64,000 nt of DNA from Cordylochernes scorpioides. Taxonomy: Eukaryota; Arthropoda; Arachnida; Pseudoscorpiones; Chernetidae. Under the pieces are notes generated by a model. That model saw only the letters and a program-made list of their open reading frames with translations. It searched no databases and was not told the DNA's origin. Position numbers and translations under genes: made by a program. This document shows positions 440-60,148 of the stretch, piece by piece (the stretch's first letter is position 1; each line of letters opens with the position of its first letter). Location: positions 63,559,404 to 63,623,403 of the forward strand of contig CP092875.1 in the NCBI GenBank assembly GCA_030710605.1, read 5' to 3'.

Positions 440-554
440 CGAATTTTGATAACAGATGGCACGCTAATGCATCGTTATATAAACACATTTACATATTTAC
501 TAATATATATTTGCTATAAATAATATATATAGCAATACAAATTATATATTTCTT

Positions 555-680
555 TATTTATGAAGAAATTGAATTGGCCAAATATCTTTGGAACAAGCTA
601 AATCAACGTTTAGTTTATTTTTGTTCCATTAGTTGGCGCTCTGCTATCTAGAAATTCTCATGTGAGGGGTCAGAAAATGC
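555..680 (+). repeat. Ribozyme-repeat family, 3' part of a unit (copy A)
   Basis: Matches the downstream third of the hammerhead repeat (GGCCAAATATC, TCAACGTTTAGTTTATTT, TTGGCGCTCTGC, then TGTGAGGGGTCAG). The ribozyme itself is absent. It lies directly upstream of full copy B in the same orientation, so A and B form a head-to-tail pair separated by an expanded AT stretch. Confidence 0.6.
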
Positions 681-721
681 CAATTATGTTTTTAATATAT
701 ATATATATACATATACGTATA

Positions 722-1105
722 TGAAAAACAATAGAAATAAAATAATAAGTGGGTCAGGTGTTGATATCAACGCCTGACTTTTTTTTCTATTGTTTTTTTC
801 GTGTGTTAAGCGTATTTACGCAAATTTGGCCTTAAATACCCATTCCCTTGCTTTCTCAAGAAGCCACTGGGACCAAAAATATTTTTGGTTGCAGTGGTAC
901 AGCCAACTCCACGCTGACGAGCGCCAACAGCGCGAAACGCGTTCGTGGATCGCTTTTCTTGATTTATCAAGAAATTAGGTTGGTCAAATATCAGGGAACA
1001 GACTGAATCAATGTTTAGTTGATTTCTGTTCCACCAGTTGGCGCTCTGCCTTCTGTAAAGCACATGTGCTCCTGGTCAGGATATGCTTTCTTTATATATG
1101 TATAT
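722..1105 (+). repeat. Hammerhead-bearing repeat, full unit (copy B)
   Basis: Begins with a palindrome around GTCAGG/CCTGAC (754-780), then TCTATTGTTTTTTTC. An 18-nt perfect palindrome follows around 873-891 (ACCAAAAA/TTTTTGGT) inside a CCACTG/CAGTGG stem, then a hammerhead motif (909-948), then the conserved tail ending near AGCACATGTGCTCCTGGTCAGG. Other copies lie at 555, 13858, 33634, 44262 and 45735. No protein is encoded. Size and ribozyme resemble metazoan retrozymes; that assignment is inference. Confidence 0.65.
909..948 (+). ncRNA. Hammerhead ribozyme, type I, minimal stem III
   Basis: Stem I is CCACG (909-913) with CGTGG (944-948), extendable by T908-A949. The core box CTGACGA (914-920) fits CUGANGA. 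Stem II is GCGC (921-924) with GCGC (930-933) around CAACA, giving the usual G10.1-C11.1 pair. GAAA is at 934-937. Stem III is ACGCGT (937-942), only 2-3 pairs, and H17 is T943, so the cleavage triplet is GUU. All core positions conserved in hammerheads are present. The RNA would self-cleave after U943. Very short stem III is the known style of Penelope-like and retrozyme hammerheads. Confidence 0.8.
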
Positions 1106-1734
1106 ATACATATAATATATATTAAAGGGCATTTCTACCATCTAATTCAATGTAATCAAGGTACATTCTAAATATTTCAGAAATCACATTGAAAATTTAA
1201 CGCAACTCGAGTGTTTTGATAATTAAGATCTCATTATAAATTTAACATAATTAGCGTCTATATAATATATTCATTATCACAAACAAAGGGCACATTTGCA
1301 ATGCAAATTTTAATTGATATGATTATTATATTCATAATGCAATGTATTGTGTCTTCTAATTCTCTATCAATATTATAACCCACTATCTCTCTCTCTCTCT
1401 CCAATATAACAACTGAGATCTAAATTTTACCAATTTTATTTTTTAATTTTAAGCAAAACACGCAGAATACGATATATGACCAAATTTGGTCATATATTTT
1501 GAAATTTGAAATTTTGAAAATATAAATTATTTAAACAAAGTATTTAAAATTAAATTTTAAGCTATAGAGAAATATCAACTTCTTGAATATGTGTATTTTC
1601 ATATTTTGTTTCATTGATCTTTTCGCATATTTTTGAAACCTGTCCTTTTGTCATAATGCATCGAGTAGGAACTTATTTTACCTCTGTTTCTATACGAATT
1701 CCTGAAAAAAGGTTTCATTATATATGTACCGTCT

Positions 1735-1866
1735 CCAGATGGACACTTCTCAGTTTGCCAAAGATAGTGTTGTGGCTTTGTCACCGACCAGAGGCCGCTA
1801 GTTTGTGGCGACGTTCAATAAATGGCGTCAGGTTTTGACGTTTATTTTGACATGAGAGGCGCCCTA
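1735..1866 (+). repeat. Dispersed repeat (GTGGCTTTGTCACCGAC family)
   Basis: Shares CCAAAGATNGTGTTGTGGC, GCCGCTAGTTTG, CAATANATGGCGTC and TATTTTGACNNGAGAGGC with 38905-39010 and 52214-52320 (both reversed) and with 59330-59425. Non-coding; it looks like a short terminal-inverted-repeat element. Confidence 0.55.
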
Positions 1867-2917
1867 TACTTATATTTATTAAAAACAAAAAGGACATGAC
1901 CATTTTAGATGATAGAGCGCCATATATTGGAGTAGAAACAATATATAGAGAAAGGTTACCTATCTCGTATAAAAATTCAAAAGAACAATGTATTTTTAAT
2001 TATCACTCTAGTGATGAGCGCATATGTTTTGTCAAATTTAGACAAAGCTTATCCGTATACTACAACGGGAGTGATCATTGTTCATGTACATCCATTGTTC
2101 TGTTGCAAATTTCAACAAAGGAAAGGATCCCCTCTTTTTGAATAATAGTGCGAAAAAATGGTATTCTAGTGAAAAAAAATTGTATTGAGATTTATTTTAT
2201 TCAAATATATTTTAAAATCTTCAGTGGATCTTTATTTCGCATAGAATTCAAATTCAGATCAGTGAATATGCTAAAGCATTAGTTTCGACAAATTTGGATG
2301 AATAAACAAACTTCTCGACCTGTTAACTAAATTGAAATATAGAGAGCACACAATAATCCACATTAGTACAGGGACGGTTTTGATTTTGTAACGGCTATAG
2401 GGGAAATGTAATATGTATATATAGGTGATGTGCCAAAGAGTTATGTAATATGGTGAATTGATAAGGAAATCTTGGCCAGTATAAAGAGTATTCTCCAGAT
2501 AATTCGGCCTTTATGATAATAAAGATGTCAAGGCCTCTCAATCTATAATTAAATCTAGCAGAGAAATAAAATGAAATCCTCATTTGCCTGAAAATATGAA
2601 AGGAATAAAATGGGATTTTATGTGCATTAATATTGTATACCTTATTGATATTTACGATATAATTTTATCAAACCAAGGCAATTTTACAACCAGGTTATAA
2701 AATTGACTTACCCCAGTTGCCGTCAAAACCTGTTAGAATAAAATTTTGATAAAACTAGACGTGCCAGGCTCATTTCTCGCGAGTGCGACCATGAATAAAG
2801 GCTCAATATCAGCAGCTGGTACATTACTTGCACCTGAGTGAAGACTTAATATCAATAAAAAGATCGTGATTGGCAATGAGTGGATTCAGGAAGCTTGCAT
2901 GTTTAAAAGAGAAAGTT

Positions 2918-5171: not shown

Positions 5172-5284
5172 AACTTTGACAGTCCATAAAACAAAAACTA
5201 CTTGAGATTAAAAACTTGTTTTTTTTTTCATTACGTAGCCATATTCATGTAAAATGCAACAGTACATGTGTGCGCAGTGTAGTG

Positions 5285-6297
5285 ATGAAGAGTAACCGAG
5301 AATTTGAAAATCGAGCTGCCATCATCGTTGCTCTGCGCGCCGGAAGGAGCCCCAAAGAGATAGTGGATTTTCTTAAGTTGCCCAAAACCACTATTTATCG
5401 TGTCAAGAAGCAGTTTGATGAGGCCGACAGTAACAAAGAGGGGATAGCTACAAGGAAAAAGCACTCGCGTCGATCGGACAGGGTAAGAGGCGAAGAATTT
5501 GTCAAAAATGTCAAGGAGAAGATTGATGGAAACCCTGGGAAGAGCATGAGGGCCATAGCCAAGGAAATGGACGTTGGCTCTATGACAATTGTCAGAACTA
5601 TCCATGAGGACCTTGGTCTCAAGTCTTATGCCCTTCGGAAAGGTCAGTTGCTGACTGAGAATATGAAGAATAACAGAAAAGGAAAGGCTGCTGCCCTCCT
5701 CAACAACCTGAAACACGACTCTTTTGGCATGCTAAGGTTCTTCTCTGACGAAAAGAACTTTGACGTGGACCAAAAGGTAAATCCCAGGAATGATCGCTGG
5801 ATCTGTAAAGACCCCTCAGAGATACCTGTCGTGATGCACACGAAATTTCCTGCCTCCGTAATGGTCCTTGGCGTTATCAGCAGTGAAGGTGATGTCATGC
5901 CTCCCCATTTCTTTGAGAAGGGCCTTAGGATGAACGTTGACACCTACATCAATGTTCTGGAGACCGTTGTGAAGCCTTGGATGGACATGGTGGCCGCAGG
6001 AAGGAAGTATGTCTTCCAACAGGACTCAGCTCCAGCCCATAAGGAAAAAAAGACACAATCGTGGCTGACACTTAACGTCCCTAGTCACTGGGGTCCTGAT
6101 ATTTGGCCCCCTAATTCTCCAGATTGCAATCCCCTCGACTACTATGTATGGGCGTTGTTGAGAGAGATGTCAACAAAGCTCCTCATACCACCATCCAGTC
6201 TGTCAAGAAAGCAGTTCACACGGTGATGACCCAAATGGACAAGGTCATCGTCGCCAAGGCCTGTGCTTCATTCCGCACTCGCCTCGAACTGTTGTAG
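5285..6297 (+). pseudogene. Tc1/mariner transposase, DD37D (maT-like), frameshifted
   Basis: Cut-and-paste transposase that would bind the element ends in the nucleus. The start at 5285 (MKSNREFENR) is preferred over the upstream ATG at 5216, because the helix-turn-helix begins soon after it (IIVALRAGRSPKEIVDFL, TTIYRVKKQF). A second helix-turn-helix is MRAIAKEMDVGSMTIVRTI. Catalytic acids: SDEKNF, FQQDSAPAH, and SPDCNPLDYYVW; the last two Asp are separated by 37 residues, the DD37D spacing of the maT group. A single-base deletion near 6162 shifts the frame: the open frame stops at 6224-6226, while homologous-looking sequence continues in another frame to the stop at 6295-6297. No intron is evident. 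Otherwise intact, so the copy is fairly young but inactive. Confidence 0.85.
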
Positions 6298-6730: not shown

Positions 6731-9035
6731 TTGTTATTTATTATTTATTTATTATCATTTACAAAGCACGCGGTATCCGTCTTGGATATATTCATGCATA
6801 CACAAGTTTGGGAGCTTATTTACAGTAATTATTAATATGATTTTAGTTATTATAACTAGAAATTATTAACGTATTTGTCAATTAGTTAACGATTTAATTA
6901 CCCTATAATGAATATTAGTGAACATCACAAATAAGAACAGAAATTTAGAGCTATTTACAGCATATAACTATATACCAGTTATTACAGCCCAGGCTATCTA
7001 TTACTAAAAAACATTCTACAGAATCTATTAAAATTTATATACATATATCTATTATTAACTATTTGATTTAAACTATTTATATTTATTTGATTTTTAACTC
7101 TCAAGTCCTCTACAAGTCGACAGTCCGTTAGAATATGTACAGGATTTTCTTCTTCTGCACCACATGAGCATTTAGGCGAATCCGTCTTTCTGACATTGTA
7201 CAAATATGATCTAAAGTTACCGTGTCCAGTAAAAAATTGGACATTGTAAAAATTTGGCTTGACATATTTGGGTATTTGGGAATCCGTGAAAAAGGACTTG
7301 AAAATGGTATTTGTCTTCTCATAGTATTTCTGCATTTTTTCTTTTATATAATTAGAAATTATATTCCTACTTGAAGAGTCAAATCGATTGTAATTTATTT
7401 CGGTTTTCAACATGTTAGATTCAATATATTCAGTAAGTTTGGGGACTTGTGCAAGTATGTGTGTACAATCCGATGATGTTGTACTGTAGGCCTGTATACA
7501 ATGTTTTAAAATATTATATTGAAGAGAATTTAGTTTGTCCTTAGACTTTTTGTTTATGAATGGATACCATATTGAATAACCATAAGTAATTGTACTTCGA
7601 TATAATGTCTTATACAATATCCACTAGCTCTAGTTACTTTTATGATCATTTCATTAACGTGAGGCGTAAAGTCCAGTTTGCTTCTGACTCGGTGATTTTT
7701 AATAGTCACTCCTAGGATCTTAAGTTCTTTAACCGGTTTAATTAACTTGCTACCTGAGACTATTATATCGCTATTGCATTTATATAAATATAATATTTTT
7801 GTTTTTTATCTGACAATTTCAATTTACGACTTTCACACCACTTATTGATTTTTCTTAATACATTATCAATTGTCTTTCTTAGTTGTTCAGGAGTTTTATT
7901 CCAACATATTAACGTAATATTATCTGCATATCCTATTGTTTCACAATTATCATCCAGATTATTATTCAGTATCTCATTAATAAGAATGTTCCATAATGTG
8001 GGAGACAGTGGTCCTCCCTGTGGACATCCTTTACTTAGTTTCTTATTAATTTCAGTTGAAGAATATCTAAATCTTACTCTTCTATTATCAAAGTATGATT
8101 GTAGAAGTTTTATCATTGAAGCCTGCACACCATCTTCATCTAGTCTTTTCATCAAGGCCGGCCACCATGCATTATCAAACGCTGCACTAATATCCACTGC
8201 AATTATTGCTGCGTATTCTCTTGTTTTATGTTCTAACGCAATTTTTATTATTTCAGTTAGTGCAGCAATGGTAGATTTCGATCTTCTAAAGCCATGTTGT
8301 CGATCACTTAGTAAATTAAAATCTTCATAATATTTTATTATTCTATTATTAATTATTTTTTCAAATATTTTAGAAATGTTGGAATTAAGACATAAAGGTC
8401 TATAATTTTTATAGTTATTAAAATCTGTTTTTCCAGGTTTCGGAATAAATATTGCCTCTGCTCTTTTCCATTCAGCAGGATAGTATTGTAGGTCTAAACA
8501 TTTTTGAAATAGTTTCACCAATATAGGAGCTATAAATTGTTTAGTGTGCCTTATCATGTTGTTAGAGATGTTGTCTATTCCGGGAGATTTCTTTGGATTT
8601 AATTTGTCAATTAAGTCGTTAACTTCAGTAATCATAACTATCGGGTTTTTCTTTATTAAGTAGTTTTAAATTATAATTTATTATACTTTTATGGGTGTTT
8701 GTATCTTCTTCACATTTATCATCTGGAAATAAGTTATTTAATAATTCCTCACCCTTCTGCAGACATTCCATATCAGTATTACCCTCCAAATTTTGCATAT
8801 TTCTCTTCCGATTAGATCCACTTTTGATGTTTTTATACACTTTATATAAGTTTCCATAAGGGTTGTTCGATTTGTTTTCCTCCAGAAATATCCTCCAGGA
8901 TGCTTTCCTAACTTTTTCTATTTCCGTAAATACTTATTTCGTATGCTTTTATAGTATTGTTTAATGTGATTAGGGCAATTATTGTTTCTATAGTAACAGT
9001 TTCTAAGATAATGACAGTGATCCTTTAGAAGCTGT
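6731..9035 (-). pseudogene. R1/Jockey-type LINE ORF2, 5'-truncated and broken
   Basis: Non-LTR retrotransposon. On the minus strand from 9035: a pre-RT segment (about 9030-8700, including WRIFLEENKSNNPYGN), RT (8635-7763) with PGIDNISNNMIRH, FIPKPGKTDFNNYKNYRPL, QHGFRRSKSTIAALTEI, motif A VDISAAFDNAWW and motif B KGCPQGGPLSPTLWN, then thumb (to about 7620). The C-terminal part (7617-6994) ends with a CxCG...HxxxxC zinc knuckle (CSCGAEEENPVHILTDC). Motif C reads GYADN instead of YADD, so one catalytic Asp is lost. Frame breaks lie near 8930, 8630 and 7620-7760. The tail has a TATCC/GGATA hairpin and AATAAATAAATAA ending at 6731. The AFDNAWW and LWNIL motifs favour the R1 group; endonuclease and ORF1 are missing. 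Confidence 0.85.
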
Positions 9036-10160: not shown

Positions 10161-10485
10161 AGAAACCATTAACTCTGCCTTTGCCGGTCCCAAGCCCGGG
10201 TGAAAAAGGAGGAGGGGGAGCAGTAACAAGCTCGCTAAAAAATCTGGGCTCAGCTGGCCCGGCTGATAGTACCCTGTAAGGGTTCCTGATACAGGAATAC
10301 AGGATGAGCAGCGTTTGTACTCCATGTTAAGAGCGGCTGCACATGGCGTCTGTTCCTCATGTCAGAGTCGGCCATTTCTTTTGGAGCTAAGTCGGCCTGC
10401 CACTGAGTAGTGCTCCCAGTCTTAATGACAAAGGCAGACGCATTCTACTTCACCCAGTGTGGAGATAAGGAAGAAGAAGATCTCC
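10161..10485 (-). repeat. Dispersed 0.3-kb repeat, copy 1
   Basis: Runs from TGCCGGTCCCAAGCCCGGG to GACAAAGGCAGACGCATTC. Copies lie at 34425-34745 (opposite orientation) and 35027-35320 (same orientation). On its sense strand (minus here) it contains an ATG-led open frame beginning MADSDMRNR. No domain is recognisable. It may be the 5' region of a LINE, but that is a guess. Confidence 0.65.
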
Positions 10486-13857: not shown

Positions 13858-14130
13858 TAAAAAAGTCAGGTGTTGTAATTAAAAAACAAATAAGGGTATC
13901 CTGACCAGGAGCACATGTGCTTTTTAGATAGCAGAGTGCCATCTAGTGGAACAGAAATCAACTAAACGTTGATTTTAACCTGTTCCCTGATATTTGGCCA
14001 ACCCATTTTCTTGAGAAATCATTGGCCAAAAATCAGGGAACAGGCTATATCAACGTTTAGTTTATTTCTGTTCCACTAGATGGCGCTCTGCTATCTAAAA
14101 GGCACATGTGCTCCTGGTCAGGAAAGGCCT
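13858..14130. repeat. Ribozyme-repeat family, inverted pair lacking the ribozyme (copy C)
   Basis: Two copies of the unit's 3' part face each other (13895-14010 minus; 14015-14127 plus), both with CCATCTAG/GATGGCGCTCTGC, the TCAACGTTTAG segment and CACATGTGC. The hammerhead part is absent from both arms. Confidence 0.6.
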
Positions 14131-14365
14131 TCTTTGTTTTTTAATACATATACATATATATGAAATATATATACAAAGTCTCTTCATTGGTAGCGCTCAC
14201 CACGGGAAAGACACGCTACCGGAGAGATAATTTAAGATAGTGAATTAAGTAATTATATATTGATTCTGTCTCTATATATACAATTTATATCCATAATTAT
14301 TTCTTTAAATCGCGCTATTCCAGCCCAAACAATCCCGAGAATTAGTTTAAATGATTAGTTATATA

Positions 14366-18000: not shown

Positions 18001-18590
18001 CTAGTCTTCATCAAGAGACTCCCTGACACTCGATTCTAAAGGAAGACGTGACAATGCGTCAACATTGGAATTATCACTAGTTTTTCGAAATTCCACAGTA
18101 TAATTAAATGCAGCTAATTTTAAGGACCATCTTTTAATTCTGGATGATGCACATATGGGAATTGGTTTATGAGGTGAAAATATATGAATTAAGGGTCGGT
18201 TGTCTGTGACCAATAAAAATTTTCGTCCCAGTAAGTATTGTCTGAATTTCTCAACGCCAAAGGTTATGCTCAACGCTTTCTTTTCTAGTTGAGAGAAACG
18301 TTTTTCCGCTTCAGTTAATGTTCTAGAAGCAAAGGCTATAGGGCATTCTTCCTTTCTATCATTTCTATGACTCAGAATTACGCCTAGTCCATAGTCCATT
18401 AATAATGATTTACATTTTTCAAATAACATTCGATATTCTTTCGTCCAATTCCATCTACAATTTTCATTCAAAAGTTGATAGAATAGCGCTAAAATGTTTG
18501 CTATATTCTTTATGAATCTATAATAATAAATTAAGAGTCCTATGAAAGATCTCAATTGCGAAACATTCTTTAGGTTCAGGCGCCTCTATC
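18001..18590 (-). pseudogene. Gypsy RNase H region
   Basis: Minus strand: MRSFIGLLIYYYRFIKN, CPIAFASRTLTEAEKRFSQL, then EKKALSITFGVEKFRQYL, GRKFLLVTDNRPLIHIF and NSNVDALSRLPL. These are the standard Ty3/gypsy RT-connection and RNase H motifs, including TDNRPL. An internal segment is missing between KSLLMDYG and LGVILS. It degrades the RNA strand of the hybrid during reverse transcription. Confidence 0.85.
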
Positions 18591-20535: not shown

Positions 20536-22680
20536 GTTAATATATAGCGAGAAGAGAAGAGGACTGAGCACAGATCCCTGAGGTACCCCAGCCCATGTTC
20601 TTCGGTCCTTGGAAAATGTTCCATTGACCCGAACCTTTATCCTTCATCCCCTTAAGAAGTCTGCAATCCAGAATAAGGTTTTTCCTCTTACTCCGATGTT
20701 GTGCAGCCTTTCAAATAATTTCTTCACTCGATCAAAAGCTGAGGTCATATCCAGGACTACGGCCGTTGTCTTCTTTGGCGGTTTTTCCTAGAAATCTATT
20801 ATTGATTGACAGAAGTAGAACAGTTTATCAGTTGTACAGTGTCTGGATCTTTAGGCAGTTTGTTAGAGTTTATTTTATTATTGATAGTGAGCCAGACTAT
20901 GATCCTAGAGTGGATAATTCATTCTATTAATTTACAAAGTATGCAGGTAAGTGCAATCGGCCGATAGTATTGCATTCCTTAGCATCTTTGTGTGGTTTCA
21001 GTATTGGCACTATAATTGATATCTTCCAATTCTTTGGTAGTTTACCAGTTTGCCATGAAATGTTCAGTTATCGTAGGAGTTGATTTTTAGCTTCGTCTTC
21101 AAAGTGTTTAATCATTTGACCAAAGATTAGAGCATCTCCAGGTGATATCTTGGATTTAACTTTCCTATTGATGAATTTAGCTCATTCAGTGTGCAGTCTC
21201 TCGAGTATATATCTTGTTAATGGTAATTTCTTGCTTGTTTAACTAACTTGTTTATATTATTTTTTAGAGTCCTGCCTTCATTCGTATAGCTGAGTCTGGA
21301 AGTGCTTGAAAGATATTCAGCAATTATGTCAGCCATCTGTTTGTTCGTTCTCGCTGTTCATATCGGTTAGAGTATTAGAGGATTAGTGTTGGTTTTGATT
21401 GTTTTATAACACTAATTATATTCCAGTGATGGCTTTCCTTTTTTGGATCCACTATTTTCGCAGAATTCTGCCCATTTATCTTGTTTGAATATCCAAATTT
21501 CTTGTTCTATTTTGTGACTAATTTCAATGAGTTCCTTTATGATTTCTTCTGTCTTATTTGTTTTAAGAAGTTCATTGATATTGTCTCTCTCTCTGCGATC
21601 ATTGCCTCGATGTTGTGGTCCTTCCAGTAAAGTATTCACAGGTCTTTACGTTTACCTCTACGTATCGATACTTTTTCAGCTTTGGATATGTTCAAAGAGA
21701 ATTTTTCCAATTTTTTGTCAATCGTTCTGTGATTTAATTCTTCGTTGCACAGTTCTTCAAGCTTTTCTGTAATTTTTTTTCCAGTGTTCTTTTATTCTGT
21801 TGGAAATTCTCAATTTTGAATTTTAGGGTTGTTAAAATTGGTATGTGGTCACTGATTGCACTTTTCAGAATTTTCCATTGTGTTGTGGGTGCGATGTTGT
21901 AATTTATCGCTGTGATGTCTATTGCGGATTCTGTGCCTGTGGACTTGGATAGATAGATGTTCTTTTGGTTATTTAACGGCGTAAGGTCGAGGTCGGTTAG
22001 CATGTCCTCAACCTGCTGACCTTTGTTATCCTGGACAGGTGATCCCCAAGTTGGTCTTTCGGCGTTGAAATCACCAAGTATGATTGCGATATCCGAAGAC
22101 GCTTCACTTAATGTATCTATCAGGCCTGTATTGATGCTAGTATTTTCGTGGTGATAAACATTTATGATTGGAATTGTTTCATCTGTAAGATAGATTTCTA
22201 TTGCCTGAGCTTCTGTCGTGCTTTCTCTAGGCTTACTCTGATTATAGGCGATTTCCTTAAATTTGATTTCTAGAGTTTTAATCAAAACGGCAAGTCCTCC
22301 TCCGAATTTTCCTGGTCTGTCAATTCGTAGTGTTGTATAATCTTTGATATTGAATCTCAAATTCTGTTTCAATTTTGTCTCCTGAGGACAATTAATATTT
22401 CCATTGTTGTCACAGAGAAGACAAGTCAGCTCTTTATTTTCCTCTGGGTACCATTTATATTGAGTTGTAGTAGATTGAATTGTGTCCTCGTAGTAGATTT
22501 CTCATCATGAGCTCGAGCTGCAGCTCCTGACGCGGCGGTTACCCCGGACTCGGTAGCATTACTGGGTGCCGTTGCAACGTTAGTCATCTTGGAAACGAAG
22601 CAGAGTTTGGTCAAATATTCCAAGGGTCCAGGGGGGACCACAAGGAGGTGTGGTCGAATTTCTCCCCTTCCCCCTGGAAT
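20536..22680 (-). pseudogene. Jockey-like LINE ORF2, split by the gypsy insertion
   Basis: Minus strand from about 22588: MTNVATAPSNATES, then LLQLNINGTQRK (start of an EEP endonuclease), a frame break near 22440, and PQETKLKQNLRF, GKFGGGLAVLIKT, IIPIINVYHHE-like, IILGDFNAERPTWGSP, SAIDITA and ISDHIPILTTL (endonuclease to about 21800). A linker follows (21640-21412). RT in shifted frames (21100-20536) shows KLPKNWKISIIVPILK and motif B GVPQGSVLSPLLFSLY at 20596-20536. The reading frame is interrupted exactly there by the gypsy LTR, and NDIPE resumes at 16434-16418 on its far side. The segment 22589-22680 looks like LINE 5' UTR and abuts the mariner start. Confidence 0.8.
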
Positions 22681-33594: not shown

Positions 33595-33633
33595 ACAAGG
33601 TTATCCCAAAGGTTAGTAAACATATTATGATTT
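33595..33633 (+). mobile_element. Mariner-type MITE, left part (split)
   Basis: TACAAGGTTATCCCAAAGG, then GTAAACATATTATGATTT. It is interrupted at 33633 by the hammerhead repeat and resumes at 33943. Intact relatives lie at 34128 and 34318. Confidence 0.65.
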
Positions 33634-33942
33634 TCTATTGTTTTTTCATGTGTTAAGTGTATTTACGCAAGTTTGGCCTTAAATACCCATTTCTTGGTTT
33701 CTCAAGAAGCCACTGGGACCAAAAATATTTTTGGTCGCAGTGGTACAGCCACGCTGACGAGCGCCAAAAAGGGCGAAACGCGTTCGTGGATGGCTTTTCT
33801 TGATTTATCATGAAATTGGGTTGGCCAAATATCAGGGAACAAGACTAAATCAATGAATAGTTGATTTCTATTCCACCAGATGACGCTTTGCCTTCTGAAA
33901 AGCACATGTGCCCCTGGTCAGGATATGCCTTTTTTATTTTTA
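33634..33942 (+). mobile_element. Hammerhead-bearing repeat inserted with 12-bp TSD (copy D)
   Basis: A 309-bp insertion flanked by ATATTATGATTT at 33622-33633 and 33943-33954. Intact relatives of the host MITE show the uninterrupted ATTATGATTTATATTTTG, so the empty site is known. It starts TCTATTGTTTTTTC, holds a 20-nt palindrome (GACCAAAAAT and its reverse) and a hammerhead at 33749-33789, and ends in TATTTTTA. No coding capacity. A long target duplication suggests reverse-transcription-based insertion rather than a DNA transposase, which would give TA or 8 bp here. Confidence 0.75.
33749..33789 (+). ncRNA. Hammerhead ribozyme in copy D
   Basis: Stem I CCACG (33749-33753)/CGTGG (33785-33789); CTGACGA (33754-33760); stem II GCGC...GGGC with one G-G mismatch; GAAA (33775-33778); ACGCGT, then T. 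All core positions are intact; stem II is slightly weakened. Confidence 0.7.
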
Positions 33943-34127
33943 ATATTATGATTTATATTTTGTAAGAGAAAAAAAAAGATAATAGAATGATTAAATATTT
34001 GCATATTTACAAAAAGGTTTGTGCCAGCATATAAAAACAACAGCAATAATTTATATATTACAAAGTCGTGCTATCTGACGGTCGACTTTACAGATTTGTT
34101 CTAGACTATATTTTCGAAAATTACAAG

Positions 34128-34424: not shown

Positions 34425-34745
34425 TCTTCTTCCTTATCTTCACTCAATCATAAAAGGGTCTGGGTGGAGTAGAAACGCGTCTGCCTTTGTCATTAAGACT
34501 GGGAGCACTACTCAGTGGCAGGCCTATTTAGCTCCAAAAGAAATGGCCGCCTCTGACATGAGGAACACATGCCATGTGCAGCCGCTCCTAACATGGAGTA
34601 CAAACGCTGCTCATCCTGTATCCCTGGATTATGAGCCCTTACAGGGTACTATCAGCCGGGCCAGCTGAGCCCAGGTTTTTTAGTGAGCTTGTTACTGCTC
34701 TCCTTCCTCCTTTTTCATTCAGACTTGGGACCGGCAAAGGCGGAG
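34425..34745 (+). repeat. Dispersed 0.3-kb repeat, copy 2
   Basis: Opposite orientation to 10161-10485 and 35027-35320. Carries ATGGCCGCCTCTGACATGAG on the plus strand; the frame continues to a stop at about 34668. Flanked by AAGAAG on both outer sides. Confidence 0.65.
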
Positions 34746-35026
34746 TTATAATCCAGTCCTATTTATATAAAAGAACACAGAAGAGCAAAGAGTCCAATTT
34801 TCTCAATAACAAAATATTGAATTATACATGTTTTTCAAATAATAAATATTACACTATGATGCATTACCGCGCCATCTGCTATAAGAAATATTAACTATTT
34901 TAGACGACTATATTTCTTTTTAAAATAAACGATTTAAATTGAAAAGAAACACACTCATACAATGACACACATGCGCAAAAATAATTTAAATTTATAAAAA
35001 GTCATTTTTACAATTCATATACATTT

Positions 35027-35325
35027 TCTTTGCCGGTCCCAAGCCCGGATGAAAAAGGAGGAGGGGGAGCAGTAACAAGCTCACTAAAAAACCTGGGCTC
35101 AACTGGCCCGGCTGATAGTACCCTGTAAGGGCTCCTAATCGAGGGATACAGGATGAGCAGCGTTTGTACTCCATGTTAGGAGAGGCTGCACATAGTGTCT
35201 GTTCCTCATGTCAGAGGTGGCCATTTCTTTTGGAGCTAAGTCGGCCAGCTACTGAGTAGTGTTCCCAGTCTTAATGACAAAGGCAGACGCATTCTACTTC
35301 ACCCAGTGTGGAGTTAAAAAAAGAA
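35027..35325 (-). repeat. Dispersed 0.3-kb repeat, copy 3
   Basis: Minus-strand copy lying 0.28 kb from copy 2, forming an inverted pair. About 90% identical by eye to copy 1. Confidence 0.65.
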
Positions 35326-38152: not shown

Positions 38153-38904
38153 ACAAATTCTCTTATTCAATAACTTTATCATTGGAGTAAGGTCTGTAGA
38201 GATAATATTTGATGATATTATTAGAAATAAACACACATTTCCAGTATATTTAATTGTCACAATTTTCAACTATCCCATATGTACTGTAGGAGGTCAAAAT
38301 GGTATCAGAAGAACCTACACCCCAGTAATTTACTACGCCATATTAAGAACCTATTTAAGAATCTACATGGGTTATCTATCAACGAAGGAAGGAAGATATC
38401 GGCCCCAATTTCTCAGCTTTATGATCTCAGAACTCCATATTGCCTCGACATTTATTTATTTGCATGTTTAACGACATGTTCAAACACCCACTCGTAAAGT
38501 GTGGAGCCATAAACCCGTCTGTCGTCCTGGACGGATCTAATTGGCTGCCTGATAATTACAGATTAGCTCCATTTGATTTTATTGGCGCGAGAGGATCACT
38601 TCAATTTTCTTAGGTTGGTTGATTCTGTATATGTACCATTGCTGAAGGAACTACAGGAATATTAACGAAAATACATTCGAACTTTGCGAGAGCCCGGTAT
38701 CAATATGCATGAATTGATATTTCTATGGAAAATTGTGGAAAATATAAATAGATAACCGCAATCGTTGTAACATGAAATATCCCTTCTAAATTTAGAATTT
38801 GAATAAAATTAGATCGAATTTGTGCAGTAGAGTATTTAAAAATTTTAATATATATGTTAATATATAAACAATTCCTTTTTCTTACACACACAGTATTTAT
38901 TTAA

Positions 38905-39012
38905 AGAGACAAAGGTCGCCTCTCCCGTCAAAATAGACTTCAAAACTAGACGCCATCTATTGACTGTCGCCGCAACTAGCGGCCTTGGGTCGGTGACAAA
39001 GCCACAACACCA
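38905..39012 (-). repeat. Dispersed repeat (GTGGCTTTGTCACCGAC family)
   Basis: Minus-strand copy of the family at 1735 and 52214 (CGCCATCTATTGAC, GCCGCAACTAGCGGCC on plus). On the minus strand it lies immediately downstream of the hammerhead at 39038-39081, and both may be one unit. Confidence 0.6.
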
Positions 39013-39037
39013 GCTTTGGCAAATTGAAAAGCATCCA

Positions 39038-39081
39038 CCTAGAGACCATGGTTTCGGGCTAATGGCCCTCGTCAGCCTAGG
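39038..39081 (-). ncRNA. Hammerhead ribozyme with GUC cleavage site
   Basis: Minus strand. Stem I: CCTAGG (39081-39076) with TCTAGG (39043-39038), six pairs including one G-U. Core CTGACGA (39075-39069). Stem II: GGGC/GCCC with loop CATTA. GAAA (39055-39052). Stem III: ACC/GGT around AT (39052-39045). H17 is C39044, giving the preferred triplet GUC. All core bases fit the hammerhead consensus. This is the best single ribozyme candidate in the window and is unrelated in its stems to the 909 family. Confidence 0.82.
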
Positions 39082-39295
39082 GCGGGCTTTATTCCATGAG
39101 ATCCACAAGGGATCTAAGAGATCAAGATATAAAATACTATACCTCTTATTTCTTGTATTGAAAACTGAGAGCTAGCTTTCAAGGCAAAATATCATCCTCA
39201 GGCGTCTTAGCTAAACATATTCACAAGATACTAGGAAATCTATATAAAGAATAAATTTACTGCAAGATAGAGAGAGATATGAAACATATTGGAAG

Positions 39296-44261: not shown

Positions 44262-44650
44262 TACTAACTTATAGTGGAACAGAAATCAGCTGAACATTGA
44301 TTTAGCCTGTTCCTTGATATTTGGCCAACCCAATTTCTTGATAAATCAAGAAAAGCCATTCAAGAACGCGTTTCGCGCTGTTGGCGCTCGTCAGCGTGGA
44401 GAAAGTTGTACCACTGCGACCAAAAAGATTTTTGGTCCCAGAGGTTTCTTGAAAAACCAAGAAATGGGTATTTAAAGCCAAACTTGTGTAAATACGCTTA
44501 AGACATGAAAAAATGATAGAAAAAAATAAAAAGGTCAGGTGTTGATATTATAAATAAAAAGGCATATCCTGACCAAGAGCACATGTGCTCCTGATCAGGA
44601 TATGCCTTTTTTATTTTTAATATCAACACCTGACCTTTTTTTTTTTCTGT
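44262..44650 (-). repeat. Hammerhead-bearing repeat with unit-unit junction (copy E)
   Basis: Read on the minus strand: end of one unit (CACATGTGCTCTTGGTCAGG, ATATGCC), linker AATATCAACACCTGACC, then the start of the next unit (CTATCATTTTTTCATG), its hammerhead region (44358-44399), and its tail to GTTCCACTA. So a head-to-tail junction is preserved. A second inverted copy of the junction at 44590-44650 makes a 130-bp palindrome at 44515-44650. Confidence 0.65.
44358..44399 (-). ncRNA. Hammerhead motif with damaged stem I (copy E)
   Basis: CTGACGA (44394-44388), stem II GCGC/GCGC, GAAA, ACGCGT, T are all intact, but the 3' stem I strand is CTTGA instead of CGTGG, so stem I does not close. Confidence 0.55.
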
Positions 44651-45365: not shown

Positions 45366-45734
45366 TAATAGAGATATAATAATAAATATAGTCCTTCTAT
45401 AATAAATATTAACAAAAGCCTTTTATATTAAACAATACATCACGTCTTATATTGATTAATCCTTGTTTTCACAAAGAACAAACAATAGAAAGAGTACCAA
45501 TAAAGAAATAAGTAATCATCTATGGAAGGTTTTGATGATGAGACATTAAAATCACTAAGTAAATTATAAATATATATATATTCTTTTATAAAGATATTAT
45601 TGAATTATCTTATGAGAATTAGCAAGATAAGTATATATAAACGTTCTTATAGGTAAATGAATCTGAGAAAATCTTTGACTCTAGGAATATAAAACTGTCG
45701 ATTTTTGTGTTTTCCACTACGACTTATATAATAT

Positions 45735-46010
45735 AAGGTTTTGGTCGCAGTGGTACAGCCTACTTCACGTTGACGAGCGCCAAAAGCGCGAAACGCGTTC
45801 GTGGATGGCATTTATTGATTTATCAAGAAATTGGGTTGGCCAAATATCAGGGAATAGGCTAAATCAATGTTTAGTTGATTTCTGTTCCACCAGATGGCGC
45901 TCTACCTTCTGTAAAGCACATGTGCTCCTGGTCAGGATATGCCATTTTTATTTTTGATTTCAACACCTGACCTTTTAACTTTTTTTTCTTTCGTTTTTTC
46001 ATATATATAT
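45735..46010 (+). repeat. Hammerhead-bearing repeat, 5'-truncated, with following junction (copy F)
   Basis: Starts within the unit at TTTTGGTCGCAGTGG, has the hammerhead (45765-45804), the tail CACATGTGCTCCTGGTCAGG and ATGCC, then the linker TTTCAACACCTGACC and the start of a next unit (TTTTTTTTCTTTCGTTTTTTC). Confidence 0.6.
45765..45804 (+). ncRNA. Hammerhead motif, one core change (copy F)
   Basis: TTGACGA (45770-45776) has C3 changed to T. Stem II GCGC/GCGC, GAAA (45790-45793), ACGCGT, T and stem I CACG/CGTG are intact. Probably inactive. Confidence 0.55.
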
Positions 46011-51977: not shown

Positions 51978-52184
51978 ATTCGAAACTATTATAGAAGGGT
52001 ATGATTCCTTTAAAAACGAAACAAATTCTATTCCCTTTACTGCAATGGAAAAATTAATGGGAGGGCCTGGCTCATCAATGGTGAACCCTCCCAGCGGTCA
52101 GTTTAATCTACCATTGCTGTAAGGGCAGTAGAAATTGTTTAATTTTTAAAATAATCATACGCGTCTATAATAAATAGAAATTTT
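51978..52184. mobile_element. MITE with 65-bp terminal inverted repeats (TAGACGCGTATGATT family)
   Basis: The left arm starts AAACTATTATAGAAGGGTAT and holds TCCCTTTACTGCAATGG. The right arm ends CATACGCGTCTATAATA and holds CCATTGCTGTAAGGGCAG. The centre is a CTCATCAATGGTGAACCCTC repeat copy, so one repeat sits inside another. Confidence 0.75.
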
Positions 52185-52213
52185 GCCGGGAGGATATTAA
52201 TCTAAAGAGACAA

Positions 52214-52320
52214 AGGTCGCCTCTCCCGTCAAAATAGACGTCAAAACTAAACGCCATCTATTGACCGTCGCCGCAACTAGCGGCCTCAGGTCGGTGACAA
52301 GCCACAACCCCAGCTAGCGT
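52214..52320 (-). repeat. GTGGCTTTGTCACCGAC-family repeat inserted in a MITE
   Basis: Nearly the same as 38908-39012. Bounded on the right directly by AGCGTCTATAATAGTTTTGG, part of the CGCGTATGATT MITE, indicating nesting. Confidence 0.65.
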
Positions 52321-52703
52321 CTATAATAGTTTTGGATTTTCATAACAGATGGCGCTCTAAAGCATCATAATTTAATTCTACTGTCCAAAAAGCTTATGTC
52401 CATAGTTTTCTTAAATACCATTTCTAAAATTCCACCCTTCATTGTAGCATATAAAAGCAGAATAATCCAATAAAGTATTAGAGCTCTAAAAGGTGGTCTG
52501 GTAGATTAAATTGACTGTATCGCTGGAAGGTTTCGAGGGCCTTAGAACTATTTATATAAATACATTAATCGTTGGAACACTATTTTAAACCCCTAACTCA
52601 TCAGTAGTGAACCCTTCCAGAGCTGTTTCGCCAGTATTATTGTTGAGATAATAGTAGTAATTATTCATGATAAAATTATGAAAAAAGTATTAAAATTACA
52701 AAT

Positions 52704-52820
52704 ATATTCTCACAATGAGTATCTTTTTTATTTAAAAAACGCTAGCTTTCGCTCTGAAGAGCGATTAACGCTTGAAAGCTAGCGTTTGTTAAATAAAAAA
52801 GGTACTCATTGTGAGAATAT
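52704..52820. repeat. Perfect-arm palindrome with CTGAAGA...GAAA core
   Basis: Arms ATATTCTCACAATGAGTA and TACTCATTGTGAGAATAT, then TTTTTTATTTAA, ACGCTAGCTTTC/GAAAGCTAGCGT. The centre reads CTCTGAAGAGCG, ATTAACGCTT, GAAAGCTAGCG. CTGAAGA, a GCG/CGC stem II and GAAA are present, but two extra T before GAAA spoil the fold. Confidence 0.65.
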
Positions 52821-59277: not shown

Positions 59278-59430
59278 TAAAACTGTGCGCTATCTAGTGA
59301 CCGCCTGAATTGGCGTTCTTAATTTACCAAAGATGGTGTCGTGGCTTTGTCAAAACCCGAAATCGCTAGTTTGACCGTCAATAGATGGCGCTCAGTTTGT
59401 CGTCTATTTTAACGGGAGGAGTGGCTTTTA
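59278..59430. repeat. Palindromic member of the GTGGCTTTGTC family
   Basis: GTTAAAACTGTGCGCTATCT and AGATGGCGCTCAG...TTTTAAC face each other; the centre shares CAAAGATGGTGTCGTGGC with 1750-1770. Confidence 0.55.
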
Positions 59431-60010
59431 TTTCTAAAATAAATGACAAATTAACCTGCTAAGTATCACGTCGAAGTATATTTGATCGGTCCTTATGAAA
59501 TAAAAGAAGTATTTTGTTATCTTGAGTTAGTCTGATATTCCAGGCATCTGTTAACGAGCACCGTCTATCCCACCGGATGTCAACTGGGGGAGAAAGTCCT
59601 CAGATCAGATTGGAGCGACAACTTTGGAATCCGAGATTAGAGAATTGGTGGGTATAGTTGTTTCCGCTGGTACGTCAGTGATTTTATCATCCAGCCTTGT
59701 GTAGCTGTGTTTAAACTTGGGTTGAGTTAAGGAGATATTATATAAGTTAGAAGCTAAGCTGATGGACTTACTCAATAAGAACTTAATATTTATCTTGGCG
59801 AAGGGAATCTTATTACAAGCAAGCGAAGATGGGACAATCCATAGCTTTCATCGGCGATTCATCTCAAATCAACTCAAGTAGACAACTTCGATCACAAGCC
59901 TGGATTTGGTACTAAAATCTCTTATACAGCATTATTCCCTAAATCACTTCATCCAATGTTGTTTTATTTATATGAAAAATAGACACTTCGGCCAGTTGGA
60001 ATTTTTTTTT

Positions 60011-60051
60011 TCTCAACGTTTCGACAAAATTCTTATGTCTTCTTCAGGAGA
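60011..60051 (-). ncRNA. Hammerhead-like motif, left arm
   Basis: Minus strand: TCTC (60051-60048), CTGAAGA (60047-60041), extra A, stem II GACA/TGTC, GAAA (60022-60019), ACGT, T, GAGA (60014-60011). Core boxes, NUH (GUU) and stem I fit; one unpaired A before stem II is atypical. Confidence 0.5.
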
Positions 60052-60105
60052 GGTAAATGTTCTGAACAATTTTTAACGCCTTGCCAAATATTTTATTTTA
60101 TTTAC

Positions 60106-60148
60106 TTCTCCTGAAGAAAACAAAAGATTTTTGTCGAAACGTTGAGAA
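60106..60148 (+). ncRNA. Hammerhead-like motif, right arm
   Basis: TTCTC (60106-60110), CTGAAGA (60111-60117), stem II ACAAAA/TTTTGT with two extra A and one extra C at its base, GAAA (60136-60139), ACGT, T60143, GAGAA (60144-60148). Stem I has 5 pairs. The base of stem II is mispaired. Confidence 0.5.

Follow-up and report, generated by a model that had tools for sequence, protein, structure and literature searches.

Positions 908-949 of the 64-kb window, by which is meant the whole stretch of DNA analysed, hold a correctly read hammerhead ribozyme (HHR) motif of an already known kind, lying within a multicopy noncoding repeat some 310-400 bp long. In the window this repeat has eleven main copies, divided between two families, and the element is probably a non-autonomous, non-LTR retrozyme of the animal type.

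HHRs are recognised by the core CUGANGA and GAAA, together with the A15.1-U16.1 pair and H17 of the standard numbering. The motif is placed as follows:

908-949, plus strand: HHR of type I layout, from the sequence, the strict scan, pair counts and a palindrome check

The core reads C914TGACGA920 followed by GAAA at 934-937, with A937-U942 taken to be A15.1-U16.1 and U943 to be H17, and every conserved core position is present in the sequence and recovered by the strict scan; the predicted cut lies after U943 (U943/C944). Stem I (908-913/944-949) has 6 bp and stem II (921-924/930-933) has 4 bp closed by a loop at 925-929, while stem III comprises the 2 bp A937-U942 and C938-G941. The original prediction was right as to the location and the complete core (914-920, 934-937 and U942-U943). 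Its statement that all three stems close holds for stems I and II, seen both in the sequence and in the strict scan, and is not borne out as worded for stem III, taken as a helix closed within one monomer; being only 2 bp over a 2-nt loop, stem III leaves the monomer with three closed stems on paper only, and its 6 bp between two copies are likewise drawn on paper. The repeat context was borne out by BLAST, self-comparison and profiles, as was the lack of protein coding, the sole ORF of at least 85 aa over the HHR (809-1075, minus strand) having no Pfam match. The overall reading of a minimal-stem-III hammerhead in the style of Penelope-like elements (PLEs) or metazoan retrozymes, within a noncoding repeat, is thus supported.

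The copies were located by BLAST or self-comparison and by profile searches. Family A contributes seven main copies (c1 to c6, with c5 being two) and family B four (b1 to b4). Since c1-c4 and b1-b3 served to build the profiles, their own matches are given by construction, leaving c5a, c5b, c6 and b4 as independent matches:

784-1095, plus strand: c1, family A, with HHR; BLAST to other copies, profile 373 bits (by construction)
549-687, plus strand: c6, family A, no HHR, upstream of c1 at a spacing of 405; BLAST, profile
13888-14021, minus strand, and 14008-14140, plus strand: c5a and c5b, family A, no HHR, head to head; BLAST, independent profile match
33622-33954, plus strand: c2, family A, with HHR (core C3 at 33754); self-comparison, profile, Rfam Hammerhead_1
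44272-44522, minus strand: c3, family A, HHR with decayed stem I, 3' side cut short; self-comparison, profile
45733-45954, plus strand: c4, family A, HHR with core C3 changed to T (U in RNA); self-comparison, profile, HH9
38880-39110, minus strand: b1, family B, complete HHR (C3 at 39075, H17 at 39044); strict scan, profile
1729-1882, plus strand: b2, family B, no HHR, starting 3-5 nt before the predicted cut; profile (used in building)
52161-52328, minus strand: b3, family B, no HHR, starting at about +28; profile (used in building), TSD
59316-59444, plus strand: b4, family B, no HHR, starting at about +14; independent profile match

An HHR region is thus present in five of the eleven copies, one in each of the fuller copies; it is complete in c1 and b1 and damaged in c2 (a stem II mismatch and loss of 6 nt from the 5' internal loop), c3 and c4. 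The HHR of b1, spanning 39075-39044 on the minus strand, is a diverged second hammerhead of the window, and in the HHR region the two families align locally, agreeing at 31 of 41 positions. The family A profile also picks up the b1 HHR at 39051-39091 (9.8 bits, E 0.0069), which was not counted separately; equally left uncounted were its minor matches to tail pieces at 44555-44617 and to the internal palindromic arms at 33710-33744 and 864-898. Upstream of c3 lie a tail piece (44597-44555, minus strand) and an inverted tail piece (44574-44617, plus strand). Upstream of the six copies that lack an HHR, a search for remnants of one was negative, with shuffles scoring at least as well in 26 (c5a), 6 (c5b), 146 (c6), 267 (b2), 105 (b3) and 287 (b4) of 300 trials; the c5 matches fall in the adjoining inverted arm.

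Two further observations concern these repeats. Inverted stretches resembling the family A tail adjoin the 3' end of b2 at 1865-1941 on the minus strand (72% over 39 bp and 79% over 33 bp). In addition, CCASYAGRKGGCRS, which we take to be a CTCF-like consensus, has five matches in the window (three exact and two with one mismatch), all within family A, against 0.05 expected; since the family A copies are homologous, the five sites do not count as independent. For the shorter AGATGGCGC, 0.07 occurrences would be expected and 10 were found, three in families A and B and seven elsewhere. The CCASYAGRKGGCRS sites are:

1031-1044; 13936-13949 (minus strand); 14073-14086; 33873-33886; 45887-45900: matches to CCASYAGRKGGCRS

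Marks of insertion are clearest at c2 and b3. The former is a 309-bp insert between the 12-bp repeats ATATTATGATTT at 33622 and 33943, a length of repeat reached in 2 of 300 mononucleotide shuffles, and the latter a 144-bp insert between the 12-bp repeats TATTATAGACGC, equalled in none of 300. These are the two clear target-site duplications (TSDs) among the 12 places examined. Candidates at c6 and at c6 plus c1, being 11 nt of A and T (0.03 and 0.013), are not trusted, and the remaining eight places gave no TSD. By eye, tail-to-head junctions can be made out at c3, c4 and c6-c1, none of them with a long ORF. The apparent start of a next unit after c4 is short and T-rich, and the c6-c1 junction may instead reflect two independent insertions. 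Neither a unit with an HHR at both ends nor an array was found in the 64-kb window. When the stretch 549-943 (GC 0.35) was folded as a circle, it reached -121.5 kcal/mol; 100 dinucleotide shuffles averaged -76.5 (sd 4.6), and none of them was as stable (z -9.7). Of 60 random segments of the window, 5 were as stable. The 3' arm of stem I falls outside the folded stretch, whose most stable circular fold is not a hammerhead.

Animal retrozymes are described in passages of Cervera and de la Pena 2020 (PMC7229834) as tandem repeats of about 170-400 nt, low in GC, with TSDs of more than 4 bp when present, and known from insects and crustaceans as well. The window's repeat resembles the metazoan non-LTR retrozymes portrayed there in having a type I HHR within low-GC noncoding repeats of about 170-400 bp, TSDs longer than 4 bp and some tail-to-head junctions, and differs from them in that its copies are dispersed and single or partial, without an array. 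The retrozyme reading fits because size, low GC, absence of coding, junctions and TSDs all match this class: at about 310-400 bp, the noncoding repeat with its type I HHR lies within the roughly 150-450 bp of the class, and where TSDs occur they are 12 bp long, at c2 and b3. Counted against it are that only two of the five HHR regions are complete, that stem III is minimal and that c2 spans the HHR. According to passages of PMC7761336, most invertebrate retrozyme HHRs fold a stable helix III and act as monomers, and minimal HHRs belong to the PLE type; the minimal, palindromic stem III of the window departs from the retrozyme pattern.

The stem III region of c1, ACGCGU at 937-942 (family A), is self-complementary, and so is the stem III of the b1 HHR, ACCAUGGU; because both are self-complementary, cutting by two HHRs joined through stem III is suggested. 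Double hammerheads require a palindrome in the stem III loop and tandem HHRs, according to a passage in PMC6466107. As a non-autonomous retrozyme, the element would give rise to oligomeric transcripts that are cut at each HHR, mostly through two HHRs pairing by their palindromic stem III, so that tandem RNA would be cut best. The resulting unit-length RNA, either linear or closed into a circle by a host ligase, would be the template of an enzyme, not encoded by the element, that begins reverse transcription at the A/T-rich tail. HHR-spanning copies would then trace back to RNA that was circular or uncut, and those beginning immediately past the cut to cut linear RNA.

The minimal stem III, being more typical of PLEs, makes solo or broken pseudo-LTRs (pLTRs) of an autonomous PLE, with its ORF elsewhere and a minimal PLE-type HHR cutting as a dimer, a serious rival, to which we nevertheless give a good deal less credence than to the retrozyme. 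Penelope elements are prone to inverted pieces, and those at c3 and c5 match such behaviour. According to passages of PMC7761336 and PMC6466107, the pLTRs of PLEs harbour minimal type I HHRs that lack a full helix III and may be active as dimers; the window HHR is like the dimer-cutting minimal HHRs of PLEs (Lunse et al. 2017; Cervera and de la Pena 2014, in the passages concerned) in its type I layout, very short stem III and palindrome, dimeric cutting being predicted here too. It is unlike them in its setting, where no Penelope ORF was seen in the window and c2 is a short, complete-looking insertion. The minimal HHR expected of PLE terminal repeats is present, and terminal repeats flanking an ORF were not seen in the window. 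The three junctions without a long ORF also speak against a PLE, as does c2 as a 309-bp insertion with TSDs, and no GIY-YIG domain was detected in the 20 of the 60 ORFs of at least 85 aa in the 64-kb window that were searched, although a solo pLTR would adjoin no ORF.

Nine of these 20 ORFs matched Pfam families of the RT, RNase H, integrase, endonuclease or transposase type, some below the cut-off; to judge by these genes, the host animal is probably an arthropod. Four of the ORFs, with our own reading of each, are:

5180-6223, plus strand: mobile-element ORF (Pfam), probably mariner-like
7766-8665, minus strand: mobile-element ORF (Pfam), probably an RT
18004-18585, minus strand: mobile-element ORF (Pfam), probably the RNase H of an LTR-type element
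21737-22501, minus strand: mobile-element ORF (Pfam), probably an endonuclease

In the mariner-like ORF, the HTH domain scores above the cut-off and DDE_3 below it. Type-P1 twister ribozymes of Rfam were matched at 10166-10217 (plus strand, 46.9 bits), 34698-34752 (minus strand, 35.1 bits) and 35016-35066 (plus strand, 28.5 bits), against a cut-off of 67.2; the three are copies of one repeat, 90.6-94.3% alike over 123-160 bp. Shortened twisters are described at the 5' end of RTE elements in a passage of PMC7761336, and by analogy the twister-matching repeats may be the 5' ends of such elements. Families of miRNA precursors were also matched in Rfam below the cut-off, at 60014-60144, 25-181 and 52726-52798, two of the three on both strands; these are likely to be plain hairpins, as the match at 25-181 coincides with a long inverted repeat.

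That the repeat is merely decayed and its HHR a relic, with an ancestral function and no present role, is improbable. Three of the five HHR regions are indeed damaged, by the stem II mismatch, the decay of stem I and the change of C3 to U; against this, the core and stems are kept in c1 and b1 despite the divergence of their families. Across the five HHR regions, 94.9% of cells pair, a figure equalled by 11 of 500 shuffles and compared with 20-46% for slid structures. Four of the 12 pairs are changed on both sides, as many as in 14 of 500 shuffles; all four such changes come from a single row, b1, and the two counted stem III pairs are invariant.

A chance match in AT-rich DNA, for which it may be said that loose pattern matches are common, is scarcely credible given a structure common to homologous copies and a strict scan (core, A15.1-U16.1, H17, stem I of at least 5, stem II of at least 3 and stem III of at least 2 bp) that returned two motifs in the window (914, plus strand; 39075, minus strand) against two in 300 simulated 64-kb windows (first-order Markov). 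With the loose HHR pattern, 18 rows representing 11 distinct cores were obtained where 5.9 would be expected, and 1 of 100 shuffles likewise reached 18, so that the significance is carried by the stems; loose matches outside the named copies fail the strict scan and were rejected.

Covariance models and folding energies count against the motif. The original prediction had proposed a structure-aware search of Rfam as its check, and nothing in the whole window reached the gathering threshold, a score which is a test of inclusion in the database and not a structural definition. Rfam was run on the whole window and on four sub-regions (c1, b1, c4 and c2). The best match for c1 was HH9 (RF02275), at 22.8 bits against a cut-off of 52; its E value was 0.0026 in a search of 451 nt and 0.36 in the whole-window search, where it ranked 21 of 22. 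In that listing the three hammerhead matches rank 15, 21 and 22, and none of the 22 passes its cut-off. The core, stem II and outer stem I of c1 align with HH9, and its stem III is much shorter. HH9 was also the best match for the c4 region (22.4 bits, below the cut-off) and Hammerhead_1 (RF00163) for that of c2 (27.5 bits against 34); the b1 region gave no Rfam hammerhead match in its own sub-region search, and c3 no Rfam match in that of the whole window. Isolated HHR pieces fold no better than many shuffles, with z values of -0.74 (c1), -1.83 (c2), -1.44 (c3) and -0.81 (b1). The energy minimum of the 48-nt c1 piece is a different fold, 49 of 200 shuffles being as stable. The HHR fold of c1 without stem III has -13.3 to -14.7 against a minimum of -18.1 kcal/mol, and in co-folding the double hammerhead has -33.9 against -42.1 kcal/mol, again not the minimum, in energy models that omit Mg2+ and tertiary contacts.

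Scans of viral contigs (at least 120 stretches with one pattern and 24 with another) and of prokaryotic contigs (at least 117 stretches) with exact HHR patterns, at least 261 stretches altogether, gave one strict motif among the matches listed, these collections being uninformative on relatives in animals. It lies in an IMG/VR contig (L048), where 1925-1990 on the minus strand form a hammerhead-like motif whose stem III has 8 bp; it was not aligned to the repeats of the window.

Returning to the repeat, the 5' ends of its HHR-less copies lie near the predicted cut. Relative to it, they start approximately at -5 or -3 (b2), +12 (c6), +13 (c5b), +14 (b4), +17 (c5a) and +28 (b3); except for b3 these are alignment ends, and none of the six falls exactly on the cut. 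Under uniform truncation over 267 positions, Monte Carlo sampling put the chance of six within 33 nt at 0.0001 and of five at 0.001. With c4 added, six of seven gave 0.001, and five of six, with c5a and c5b taken as one event, gave 0.005. The test was made post hoc on six copies, of which two are one head-to-head pair; both families were pooled, c1-c3 were excluded as untruncated and the limits were taken from family A. The clustering may be a sign of reverse transcription of cut RNA, a lead and not proof. For the lizard PLE PAc, a passage of PMC11167929 reports insertion in vitro without need for HHR cutting and zero reads starting or ending at the cut.

It is a tentative and rather doubtful proposition that the genomic copies record ribozyme action in vivo, those without an HHR arising when reverse transcription of cut linear RNA reached the template's 5' terminus and those bearing one from circular or uncut RNA, with the palindromic stem III tying cutting to tandem RNA. 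Two families with different, yet equally palindromic, stem III sequences make the dimer requirement directly testable. The movement of short HHR repeats through animal genomes has so far been inferred and not demonstrated; should 5' ends cluster at the cut genome-wide, ordinary assemblies would show which form of the template, cut linear or circular, is used.
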